DNA of 50,583 bases from the NCBI GenBank assembly GCA_019694855.1, contig JAIBBD010000010.1, positions 1 to 50,583 on the forward strand, written 5' to 3'. The position numbers and the translations under genes are program-made. The notes under the pieces were generated by a model. It made no database searches. It was not told where the DNA came from and worked only from the letters and a program-made list of their open reading frames with translations. Shown here piece by piece: positions 40,060-46,228 of the stretch (positions within the stretch are counted from its first letter, which is position 1; every line of letters begins with the position of its first letter). Origin of the DNA: Dehalococcoidia bacterium (GTDB lineage: Bacteria > Chloroflexota > Dehalococcoidia > UBA2979).

Positions 40060-40620
40060 TCAGGCGCCCTCGAGCGTGGGCGTGGCACCGGAACTCGCCG
40101 GGGTGGGGGCTCGAAACCGCCGCCGCGGACGGGCGATACGACCGACGCGGCCGGGCGGCCAGTAGCGAACCCAGGCGACGGCCTCCACACGGGACACAGG
40201 CAACGGACCGAAGTGCCGGCTGTCAGTGCTCGCCACCCGGTTGTCGCCGAGGAGGAAGACCTCGTGCGGGCCAAGCTGGTTCACGCCTCGGAAGTCGGCG
40301 GCGGGAGACGTCCCGAGGACGTAGTCCTCGACGAGCTCGCGGCCGTTCAGCTCAACGTGGTCGCCCACGCGGACGGACTCACCGGGCAGCCCAATGATGC
40401 GCTTGAGAAGCGGGCGTCCGTCAGGGCCTCGAACGAAGGCGATGCGCCCGGCGGCACCGGCCGGAAGGCCACGGCGGAGGAGGATGAATTCGCCCGGCCG
40501 CAGGGTGGGAAGCATGCTCTCGCCCGCGACCTCGACAGCCAGGAAGGCGCGGCGGGCGACTCGGAGCGCAGCGACAAACGCGGCGCACGCCCCCACAGCA
40601 AGGAGCATGCGCCGCGCCAT
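40060..40620 (-). CDS. sodX: S26-family signal peptidase, probable NiSOD maturation protease
   Basis: A 186-residue type I signal-peptidase-like protein: an N-terminal hydrophobic stretch, the nucleophile Ser35 in VAGESMLPTLRPGEF, the general base Lys73 in PLLKRIIGLPGE, and the family box FLLGDNRVASTDSRHFGP. It lies 21 nt downstream of sodN on the same strand. NiSOD precursors need removal of a leader to expose the His-Cys nickel hook, and the S26-like SodX is encoded next to sodN in many bacteria. That role is therefore more likely here than general preprotein processing, though LepB function cannot be excluded. Confidence 0.85.
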   Translation of the reverse strand: MARRMLLAVGACAAFVAALRVARRAFLAVEVAGESMLPTLRPGEFILLRRGLPAGAAGRIAFVRGPDGRPLLKRIIGLPGESVRVGDHVELNGRELVEDYVLGTSPAADFRGVNQLGPHEVFLLGDNRVASTDSRHFGPLPVSRVEAVAWVRYWPPGRVGRIARPRRRFRAPTPASSGATPTLEGA

Positions 40621-40641
40621 GAACGACCTCGAGGAGGAGCG

Positions 40642-41076
40642 TTACGCCTGCTTGGTCTCCCAGAAGATCTTGTCGATCTCGGCGATGGCGTCCAGGAGTT
40701 TCTGGCCCTGCTCGGGGTCGGACGACTTCTTCGCCAGGCCGGCTTCCTTGGTGGCGGACCAGAAGAGCTGGTGCAGCTGCGGGTACTTCTCGAGGTGCGC
40801 GGGGGTGAAGTAGTCGGTCCAGAGCACCCAGAGGTGGTGCTTCACGAGGTTCGCGCGCTCCTCCTTGATGACGAGGCAGCGGGCACGGTAGTCCTCGACG
40901 GTCTGGCCGGCCGTCTTCATCTGCTCAGCGTTCTGGTAGCGCTGCTGGACGGCCTTGACGGACTCGGCCTCGATACGGGCCTGGGCCGGGTCGTAGACGC
41001 CACAGGGGAGGTCGCAGTGGGCGTAAGCGACGGAGTGCGGGCGAATGAGGCGTTCGATCGTGCGGGCAACGTTCAT
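40642..41076 (-). CDS. sodN: Nickel superoxide dismutase
   Basis: A 144-residue NiSOD precursor. After a 19-residue leader (MNVARTIERLIRPHSVAYA) comes the nickel hook HCDLPCGVYDP, in which His20, Cys21 and Cys25 and the new amino terminus bind Ni. The four-helix bundle follows, ending DAIAEIDKIFWETK. It disproportionates superoxide to O2 and H2O2. The start at 41076 has AAGGGA 8 nt upstream; the frame extending to 41232 is rejected. The adjacent sodX-like protease gene would cleave the leader. An extended -10 and an inverted repeat precede the gene. Confidence 0.95.
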   Translation of the reverse strand: MNVARTIERLIRPHSVAYAHCDLPCGVYDPAQARIEAESVKAVQQRYQNAEQMKTAGQTVEDYRARCLVIKEERANLVKHHLWVLWTDYFTPAHLEKYPQLHQLFWSATKEAGLAKKSSDPEQGQKLLDAIAEIDKIFWETKQA

Positions 41077-41119
41077 GAGGCCATCCCTTCGTGCAGGTGT
41101 TGAGAGGTGGATCGCTTCG

Positions 41120-41145
41120 ATAATAGCAGGCACCCGATTGCCTGC
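41120..41145 (-). promoter_or_regulatory. sodN promoter with adjoining inverted repeat
   Basis: On the minus strand TGC-TATTAT is an extended -10 (hexamer 41120-41125), 44 nt from the sodN start. It abuts a perfect repeat GCAGGCA-N6-TGCCTGC (41126-41145) that covers the spacer and -35 area and could be an operator. Which regulator binds is unknown; nickel-responsive Nur controls sodN in streptomycetes. Confidence 0.5.
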
Positions 41146-41213
41146 AGGATCCGCGCGGAGGCTAGCACCGGGGGCTTCTGAACGTCCAGATTCACGGCAA
41201 TTCGCATTCGAGC

Positions 41214-42671
41214 TCACCCGAGGGTCCACCACTGCTCGTCGTGGACGATCTTGCCTCGGCCGATGAACCAGGCGGTGATGGCCGCGCCGAGCATGACGAC
41301 GATGCCGGCCACGAACACCTCGCGGAACGTGCTGACCTGGGCCTGCTCGACCAGGGCGTTGAACTCGGGACTGCCGAACTCAACGTTGCCGGCCTTGGCG
41401 TAGAAGCGGCCCAGGCCCTGCGAGGTGAGCAGCGCCGCGCCTGCGAGCATCCCGATGACACGGCTCATCGTCAGCCAGGCCGCCGCGGTGGCGCGCTCGG
41501 ACTCTTCGACCTGATGGAGGACGGCCGCGCCCAGCGGTGCGATGACGAGGCCGAAGCCAAGCCCTCCAACGAGTAGCGGCAGAGTGCGCAGAGCCTCGGG
41601 GAGGTCGCGGTCCCAGGCCTGCAGTCCGAAGAAACAGGCGGCGGCGAGGAGCATGCCGATGACGGCGGGCAGGCGGAGGCCGAGGCGGCCGGCGAGCCAG
41701 CCACCGGCAAGCGCGCCGACGGGCACCGTGGCGGTGAGCCGCATCAGCGTCCACCCGCCATTGAGCGGGGAGCCCGCGAGGACCAGGTTCACGAAGAGGG
41801 GCACGCTGATCAAGGCCACGATCAGCCCCCCGCCGAGGAGCAGACTGGCGAGGTTGGCGGCGGCGATCGGACGGATGGTGAACATCGATAGGCGGACCAT
41901 CGGGACGGGGGTGCGCAGCTCGTGGCGCACGAACAGCGCGCCGAGCGCGACGCCCACGAGCAGGATGAGGACGGTGAGCACCAGCGGCCTCGGGGCGAGG
42001 GGATCGTCGACGAGGGCGAAGGTGAACACACCGAGCGCCGCCGCCAGCAGCATCGCGCCCGACCAATCGATGCGGCCGGGATGCCCTCCGGAGTGGCGGG
42101 TCAGGCGCCAGCCGAGGAGAGCGATTGGCGCAGTCATCGGCAGGTTCACCCAGAACACCCAACGCCAGCCGGCCAGATCCGTGATGGCGCCGCCCCAGAG
42201 CGGACCGAGCAGGGCGCCAGCCTCGGAGGCCGCGGCGATGGCACCAAGGCCCAGCGCGCGCCTCGACGGTGGGAGCTCGTCGACGACGATGGCCATGGCA
42301 ACGGGAACGACACCACCGCCGCCTACGGCCTGAAATGCCCGCGCGACGACGAGCCAGCCGAAGCTCGGCGCGGTGGCCACGAGCATGCTGCCGAGGATGA
42401 AGATGAGCAGGGTTACGACGAAGACGCGGCCGCGGCCAAACACGTCGGCAACGCGTCCCAGCAGGGGAAGGGCGACGAGGTAGCCGAGCAAATAGCCGTT
42501 CACGACCCAGGAGGAGCGATAGAAGTCGTCCACCGTGATGCCGACGTCACGGATGATCGAGGGGAGCACCGTCACGATCGACGTCTGGTCGTCGGCGGCG
42601 ACGAAGACGCCAAGGGCGACGACGACCAAGAGTGCGATGGAGGAGTCGCGGCTCGACGCCGCGGAGGGCAT
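41214..42671 (-). CDS. MFS efflux transporter, DHA2/EmrB-QacA type (P55-like)
   Basis: A 485-residue, 14-helix transporter. Motifs are VAADDQTSIVTVLPSIIRD in helix 1, the A-motif LPLLGRVADVFGRGRVF, the C-motif region in helix 5 (AASEAGALLGPLWGGAITD) and WRWVFWVNLP. It follows a gene for an LppX/LprG-like lipoprotein by 31 nt. In mycobacteria LprG and the DHA2 pump Rv1410c (P55) form an operon that moves lipids to the outer envelope, and the order here is the same. The start at 42671 has no strong ribosome site. Drug efflux is the alternative reading. Confidence 0.87.
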   Translation of the reverse strand: MPSAASSRDSSIALLVVVALGVFVAADDQTSIVTVLPSIIRDVGITVDDFYRSSWVVNGYLLGYLVALPLLGRVADVFGRGRVFVVTLLIFILGSMLVATAPSFGWLVVARAFQAVGGGGVVPVAMAIVVDELPPSRRALGLGAIAAASEAGALLGPLWGGAITDLAGWRWVFWVNLPMTAPIALLGWRLTRHSGGHPGRIDWSGAMLLAAALGVFTFALVDDPLAPRPLVLTVLILLVGVALGALFVRHELRTPVPMVRLSMFTIRPIAAANLASLLLGGGLIVALISVPLFVNLVLAGSPLNGGWTLMRLTATVPVGALAGGWLAGRLGLRLPAVIGMLLAAACFFGLQAWDRDLPEALRTLPLLVGGLGFGLVIAPLGAAVLHQVEESERATAAAWLTMSRVIGMLAGAALLTSQGLGRFYAKAGNVEFGSPEFNALVEQAQVSTFREVFVAGIVVMLGAAITAWFIGRGKIVHDEQWWTLG

Positions 42672-42702
42672 CGAGGCGGCGTCAGCCGGTGGGGGCGGGC
42701 CG

Positions 42703-43452
42703 CTAGCGCGGCGGGACAATCGTGACGTCCTCGTCGAAGCGGCTGAGGGTGAGCGTGCGGACGAGGTTGTCGGGCTCGCCAGCGCTGACGCCACCTCGGA
42801 ACTGCACCTTGCGGACGAGTTGGTCGTCGACGCCGATCCAGGCGGTGGTCGGGATGGGCTTGCCGGCGGTCGGTGTGCCGGGCAGGAGGTCGAGGTTGCC
42901 GGAGTCGAGGGTGGCTTCTACGCGGTAGCACTTCACGCCGCCGACGTCGTCGATGCCGGCGATGGTCGCGCCTCGAGTCGCGCGCACGAGGGCGATGACG
43001 CCCTGGCGGGGGTCGAAGACCTGGTCGATGGTGATGTTCTCGGACTCCCAGCGCCGGTTGAGCGGGTTCTGGATCCAGGCATCCTTGCCGAGGATGACGA
43101 TGCCGATCTCGAAGTTGACGATGCCCAGTCCGCCTTTGACGGTGGCCTGCATCTGGTCGGGGGTGACGACGTCGCCCTCGGCGCGGTTCATGGCGATGCC
43201 TCGGACGATCTGGGTGGCGCCGTTGTCGTGCTCGAGGAGGAAGTGCATGGAGCGGACTTGCTCCATGCGGGTAGCGGACTGGTCGAGGAGCGTGGAGGCG
43301 TCAGGGAAGGTGCTGGGATCAGCGTCCTCGCCGCCTCCGCAGGCGGCTACGAGGCCCGCACCGAGGAGGAGGAGCACGGCGAGCCCGCGGAGGGATGCGA
43401 TCAGGCGGATGGGGAGTGGGGTCATCGGCGGCTTTCCGGGTGTGCCAACCAT
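42703..43452 (-). CDS. LppX/LprAFG-family lipoprotein
   Basis: A 249-residue lipoprotein: signal peptide with lipobox LVAAC (Cys38), then a beta-sheet/helix domain matching the LppX_LprAFG family (MEQVRSMHFLLEH, MQATVKGGLGIVNFEIGIV, GKDAWIQNPLNRRWE, TTAWIGVDDQLVRKVQF). Family members carry triacylated lipids in a hydrophobic cavity. The pump gene directly downstream completes an LprG-P55-like pair. AGGAG lies 7 nt before the ATG at 43452. The upstream 296-nt gap holds a long hairpin and no clear promoter. Confidence 0.85.
   Translation of the reverse strand: MVGTPGKPPMTPLPIRLIASLRGLAVLLLLGAGLVAACGGGEDADPSTFPDASTLLDQSATRMEQVRSMHFLLEHDNGATQIVRGIAMNRAEGDVVTPDQMQATVKGGLGIVNFEIGIVILGKDAWIQNPLNRRWESENITIDQVFDPRQGVIALVRATRGATIAGIDDVGGVKCYRVEATLDSGNLDLLPGTPTAGKPIPTTAWIGVDDQLVRKVQFRGGVSAGEPDNLVRTLTLSRFDEDVTIVPPR

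Positions 43453-44582: not shown

Positions 44583-46228
<1,646 letters not shown>

Follow-up and report, generated by a model that had tools for sequence, protein, structure and literature searches.

The LprG-Rv1410c (P27-P55) operon of Mycobacterium tuberculosis is of major importance for virulence and for sealing the envelope; it has been treated as a mycobacterial system (PMC10576003, PMC4709180) and is described as conserved among mycobacteria (PMC10576003). For Rv1410 and LprG, a lipid extractor that hands its lipid to a membrane-anchored carrier has been proposed, and the transporter has a Glu(TM5)-Arg(TM11) ion lock that is missing in 46 other characterized MFS transporters (PMC10576003). 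A full-text search of the open-licence literature found no paper linking LprG with Chloroflexi or Chloroflexota. The locus described here lies in a stretch of 50,583 nucleotides (the window; contig JAIBBD010000010.1) from a member of the Dehalococcoidia (Chloroflexota) and resembles the mycobacterial operon and MHAS2167/2168 in gene order, protein families, and the overlap or adjacency of the two genes. The likeness extends to a predicted LolA-like LprG fold, a 14-helix DHA2 pump, the Asp of TM1 with the Arg of TM4, the Glu-Arg lock, and residues of the cleft and cavity. The window assembly contains no 16S sequence; its class was assigned by way of another genome from that class (G047), in which two probe sites for Chloroflexi and two primer sites for Dehalococcoides are matched exactly.

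Both genes are on the minus strand, with the lipoprotein gene (positions 42,703–43,452; 249 residues) preceding the pump gene. The longest frame listed for the pump covers 41,214–42,794 (526 residues) and opens with a GTG at 42,794, but the gene probably starts at an in-frame TTG at 42,719, from which a protein of 501 residues is counted (41,214–42,719). The stop of the lipoprotein gene and this start overlap by 17 nucleotides (42,703–42,719), and we infer that translation of the two may be coupled through the overlap. The same offset of −17 occurs in five relatives of the same family (L032, L035, L037, L039, and L040), and offsets of −4 are found in others. An SMP-30/gluconolactonase gene is the 5′ neighbor of the pair. 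On the 3′ side comes the nickel superoxide dismutase gene sodN (162 bits), then the gene of a type I signal peptidase (together 40,060–41,232, minus strand), and beyond these two the gene for GroEL. sodN and the peptidase gene make up a SodX-like pair, which most relatives from the family do not have at this place; there, GroEL comes closest to the lipid pair. The window also encodes, at 45,002–45,793 on the plus strand, a collagen-like protein (PF01391) with a repetitive tract (13 protein letters not shown).

The upstream protein matches the LppX_LprAFG family (PF07161) over its full length (positions 1–192 of 192; E = 1.5e-18; 67.8 bits versus a cut-off of 24). A motif scan places a predicted lipobox, VAAC, at residues 35–38 (43,339–43,350, minus strand), in which Cys38 would carry the lipid anchor; the corresponding column is at least 90% conserved among relatives. 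The best PDB match in a phmmer search is LprG (3mh8, 4zra), with LprF and LppX ranking after it, and a profile built from 26 relatives scores 76 bits for LprG, 48 for LprF, and 44 for LppX. With the AlphaFold2 model (pLDDT 88.7) as the query, the seven best Foldseek matches in the PDB are all LprG, including the PIM-bound 3mha and the TAG-bound 4zra, with TM scores of 0.63–0.66 by query length and 0.79–0.81 by target length; the comparison is one among LprG, LprF, and LppX, no LprA structure being among the fold matches. Sequence identity to LprG over the structure is ~20%. At the cavity and entrance positions of LprG as named in PMC4709180, the equivalents of V64, I68, L71, L73, V91, L95, I100, L115, and Y130 are non-polar, and those of V91, I68, L71, L73, L95, I100, and L115 are hydrophobic. 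Other features differ from mycobacterial LprG: the head-group serine, Ser72, is replaced by Ala and I129 by Asn, F123 falls in an alignment gap, and the lid loop is shorter. The model and the aligned residues suggest that the lipoprotein is likely to have a hydrophobic lipid cavity. LppX is likewise a PF07161 carrier of a large hydrophobic lipid, but its partner is an RND-type transporter, MmpL7, and it is a weaker match to the profile than LprG.

The downstream protein matches Pfam MFS_1, and its best PDB match as a single sequence is 8pnl, the structure of MHAS2168, the Rv1410 homologue of M. hassiacum (200 bits, as compared with 108 for EfpA and 79 for EmrB). The ranking is the same with a profile, which gives 351 bits for MHAS2168, 168 for EfpA, 144 for EmrB, and 127 for QacA. 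The AlphaFold2 model (mean pLDDT 89) comprises 14 membrane helices, two of which are the linker helices TMA and TMB (residues 219–236 and 246–269; 41,913–42,065) between TM6 and TM7, and its top Foldseek match is again 8pnl (TM 0.82/0.85), at ~34% sequence identity. The mycobacterial DHA2 protein EfpA shares this fold (TM 0.80/0.84) but has no ion lock in the alignment, and EmrB and QacA have the 14-helix DHA2 fold in common with the window pump. In the model, TM11 and TM12 are long (residues 406–443 and 451–486; 41,262–41,504) and likely form a periplasmic extension. The TM11–TM12 stretch measures 42 residues versus 58 in MHAS2168, being shorter by 16, in a length range that overlaps other DHA2 pumps; the periplasmic extension is 31–38 residues in mycobacteria, and QacA also has an element between these helices (PMC10576003). 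The length of this stretch was rejected as a diagnostic because of the overlap with ordinary DHA2 pumps. The TM9–TM10 β-hairpin of MHAS2168 is absent from the window pump, in which there is a 10-residue alignment gap and no strands are modeled; its deletion reportedly left transport unaffected in mycobacteria, and the hairpin was not counted among the defining features of the transporter type. Taken together, the sequence and model comparisons support the assignment of the two proteins to the LprG and Rv1410/P55 types and argue against a generic lipoprotein beside EmrB. The preliminary description of the locus, made from its sequence, had proposed an LppX/LprAFG lipoprotein followed by a 14-helix DHA2 pump, the same partners in the same order as in LprG-Rv1410c; the reading frames, the two Pfam families, and the models agree with this proposal, and the closest solved sequences and folds are indeed LprG and MHAS2168.

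Functional residues were compared in an alignment of 147 pump sequences. Asp44 in TM1 (42,588–42,590) corresponds to D35 of MHAS2168 and D22 of Rv1410, the proposed proton-coupling carboxylate, and is Asp in all 133 paired pumps from the loci; Arg127 in TM4 (42,339–42,341) corresponds to R118 and R108, the partner of this carboxylate. The ion lock is represented by Glu166 in TM5 (42,222–42,224; E157 and E147) and Arg420 in TM11 (41,460–41,462; R426 and R417), all four codons being on the minus strand. At nine positions of MHAS2168 (D35, R118, Q121, G150, E157, N184, L299, A420, and R426), the window pump has the identical residue. Substitutions at D35, E157, R426, G150, or A420, or the change of L299 to Arg, abolish or impair function (PMC10576003). 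The lock glutamate is kept in 24 of 26 relatives from the class and in each of the 80 Actinomycetota pumps that are the best of 539 relatives, and in none of the 11 further DHA2 sequences that the window genome encodes. The arginine is likewise present in all of these 80 but also in four of the 11, and only the combination of the two residues is therefore diagnostic. Two class relatives (L049 and L050) have lost both sides of the lock (D/Q and N/W), and in Chloroflexus- and Roseiflexus-like pumps (L180–L195; the chlorosome-bearing family f49 and genome G220) it is replaced by Thr/Arg; the lipoprotein partner is kept in both groups. As these variants show, not every member of the family has the lock.

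The two genes occur together much more often than chance would explain. In a set of 60 related genomes, both are present in 28, one has only a pump, which is a fragment at a contig edge, none has only the lipoprotein, and 31 have neither (Fisher p = 3e-16 for co-occurrence of the lipoprotein and an Rv1410-like pump); wherever the contig reaches, the two genes are adjacent and in the same order. Across the phylum, PF07161 was found in 115 of 301 Chloroflexota genomes, and a pump adjoins the lipoprotein in 27 of the 30 strongest of these matches. Three Chloroflexota PF07161 lipoproteins (L193/L210, L194/L211, and L203/L212) have no pump within the surrounding several kilobases; their partner may be elsewhere or missing. 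When species genomes of GTDB were scanned with an alignment led by MHAS2168, 539 relatives emerged, of which the best 80 were kept; ordering by similarity to MHAS2168 biases these toward Actinomycetota, and all 80 belong to that phylum (Mycobacteriaceae, Pseudonocardiaceae, Segniliparaceae, Micromonosporaceae, Streptomycetaceae, Nocardiaceae, and others), with a lipoprotein directly upstream of the pump in every one. The pairs of Pseudonocardiaceae, Micromonosporaceae, Streptomyces, Rhodococcus, and Segniliparus within this best 80 of 539 resemble the window pair in the upstream lipoprotein and the ion lock but differ in that the pumps form a separate clade and have a longer TM11–TM12 stretch of 48–57 residues. 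The pair is thus no rarity outside mycobacteria; it is general in Actinomycetota and frequent in Chloroflexota, and the window pair is a typical representative of this widespread family. Some genomes of the window family encode a second, divergent pump (L058, positions 115–2195; L059; L060) that is 35–37% identical to the window pump and clusters with the pump of another Dehalococcoidia family; that of L058 has a lipoprotein of its own.

Family membership, the predicted fold, the key residues, and the obligate pairing are documented here. Our preferred reading, to which we assign a probability of about 0.78 as a whole, is that the two-gene operon encodes a lipid exporter that is driven by protons, belongs to the LprG-Rv1410 type, and has been inherited vertically within the Dehalococcoidia; its cargo and direction are argued by analogy with the mycobacterial proteins. 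The DHA2 pump would draw a very hydrophobic, multiply acylated lipid out of the core of the membrane and admit it by way of lateral clefts to a greasy cavity, and the Glu166-Arg420 lock would shut beneath the lipid while the pump turns outward, with Asp44 and Arg127 helping to couple proton influx. The lipid could then slide along the extended helices TM11 and TM12 and enter the cavity of the LprG-like carrier. From this membrane-anchored protein it would pass to the wall or to the outer surface of the membrane.

The inheritance of the pair was assessed with a 70-row maximum-likelihood tree of pumps, in which EfpA and nine further DHA2 pumps from the window genome served as the outgroup. The paired pumps of both phyla fall on one side of a 100/98 branch and the nine other pumps and EfpA on the other, a result that applies to this chosen outgroup. 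The window pump is inside a 99/99 clade of 17 Dehalococcoidia rows, and its nearest relative, at 69% identity, is from its own family; the Actinomycetota pumps make up a clade (100/100) that lies nested among lineages of Chloroflexota. The gene order and family common to the two phyla could suggest that the pair was acquired recently by horizontal transfer from mycobacteria or another actinobacterium, but the grouping of the window pump with its own family, far from the separate actinobacterial clade, and its ~34% identity to MHAS2168 make such an event extremely improbable, and transfer from mycobacteria was rejected on the basis of the tree. Of the two origins offered in the preliminary description, ancient or transferred, the tree thus favors the first and speaks against the second in its recent form; a shared ancestral module or an old exchange between Chloroflexota and Actinomycetota may account for the distribution.

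The same branch bears on the function of the pump, which might be drug or toxin efflux of the DHA2/EmrB type with the lipoprotein as an accessory that has no role as a lipid carrier. The pump does have the DHA2 fold and matches the EmrB subfamily model TIGR00711, and P55 itself was initially reported as a drug pump (PMC3146831). However, its TIGR00711 score of 182.4 bits is below the curated cut-off of 230.2, which five other pumps of the window genome exceed, and MHAS2168 is a far better match, so that the close homologue of drug-only EmrB envisaged as an alternative in the preliminary description was not found. In addition, EmrB pairs with the adaptor EmrA, and no periplasmic adaptor adjoins the pump at the window locus; its partner is always of the LprG type, in the best 80 of 539 relatives from Actinomycetota as in the 27 of 30 Chloroflexota matches; the ion lock is present; and the drug phenotype in mycobacteria is now explained by envelope sealing (PMC10576003). 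An EmrB-type drug pump was rejected as a candidate, since the protein is below the subfamily cut-off and outside that clade, and we regard drug or toxin efflux in general as improbable. The pair might instead serve lipid uptake, with the carrier bringing outside lipids to the pump: in simulations lipid moves in both directions between pump and LprG (PMC10576003), and Dehalococcoidia genomes are rich in genes for lipid transport and metabolism (PMC10608941). Uptake is nevertheless very improbable, because the DHA2 relatives are proton antiporters and knockout of the mycobacterial pair causes TAG to accumulate inside the cell (PMC4709180).

Within the lipid-export reading, the special case of a triacylglyceride exporter as in mycobacteria has evidence on both sides. 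The lipoprotein fold matches TAG-bound LprG (4zra), the cavity leucine and cleft residues of the pump are kept, and the enzyme family WS/DGAT (PF03007) is encoded in several pair-bearing genomes: the same search gave two matches each in the Chloroflexota G059 and G220, nine in a Mycolicibacterium, and matches in Lentzea and Streptomyces, the last three serving as controls. On the other hand, no WS/DGAT was detected in the window genome or in 11 pair-bearing relatives from its family, in three Chloroflexus-type genomes, or in Catelliglobosispora koreensis (G355, Micromonosporaceae), which has the pair at locus L159. A TAG cargo is doubtful because no recognizable WS/DGAT is present in the window genome and the 11 relatives; the cargo is probably not a triacylglyceride made by WS/DGAT, such a cargo is unlikely in C. 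koreensis as well, and the triacylglyceride exporter as a whole appears unlikely. A search for Omp85, which gave matches in seven control genomes, found none in the window genome, and this agrees with reports that Chloroflexota have no genes for BAM or LPS (PMC13319060, PMC7332563). The lack of both WS/DGAT and Omp85 suggests that neither the cargo nor its destination is the one known from mycobacteria, and without Omp85 the lipid would end in the outer leaflet, in the wall, as shed lipid, or in an outer layer yet to be recognized. The transport of triacylated lipids that had been proposed for the pair was accordingly not supported, given these two results and the changes at the LprG head-group serine and lid loop.

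The presence of the pair and its ion lock in Chloroflexota may also inform the history of the mycobacterial envelope. Some of the actinobacterial genera that bear the pair are generally regarded as lacking mycolic acids. This distribution suggests that the lipid-export module arose before the mycomembrane and was recruited to it later. More speculatively, the module could be ancestral to Chloroflexota and Actinomycetota as a system of lipid export, and in Chloroflexota its cargo could be an acylated lipid other than TAG that goes to a lipid layer on the outside hitherto unrecognized. An example would be the enigmatic layer resembling an outer membrane that cryo-ET revealed in Chloroflexus aggregans, an organism without LPS and BAM genes; we consider this extended proposal unlikely. 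A simple link between the pair and an outer layer in the Chloroflexales was not supported. The pair is found together with CsmA in the chlorosome-bearing family f49, but also in the photosynthetic G220, which appears to be Roseiflexus-like because both reaction-centre domains are in one frame and CsmA is lacking, and Roseiflexus castenholzii appears by cryo-ET to have no outer membrane (PMC7332563).

The interest of the window pair lies in the breadth of its family and in the ancestral cargo, and it raises the questions of which lipid was originally moved and of whether an outer lipid layer is built at all in Chloroflexota, whose cells are without LPS or BAM machinery. The family also supplies natural variants with which the published mechanism could be probed, namely pumps in which the lock is lost or changed, the β-hairpin is absent, or the TM11–TM12 stretch is shorter. 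A search of plasmids for pumps gave none at 1e-20. Plasmids of Mycolicibacterium alvei (L089) and Tsukamurella tyrosinosolvens (L090) each carry an LppX_LprAFG lipoprotein gene without a pump, followed by a DUF4189 gene, and this combination constitutes a different recurring pair.
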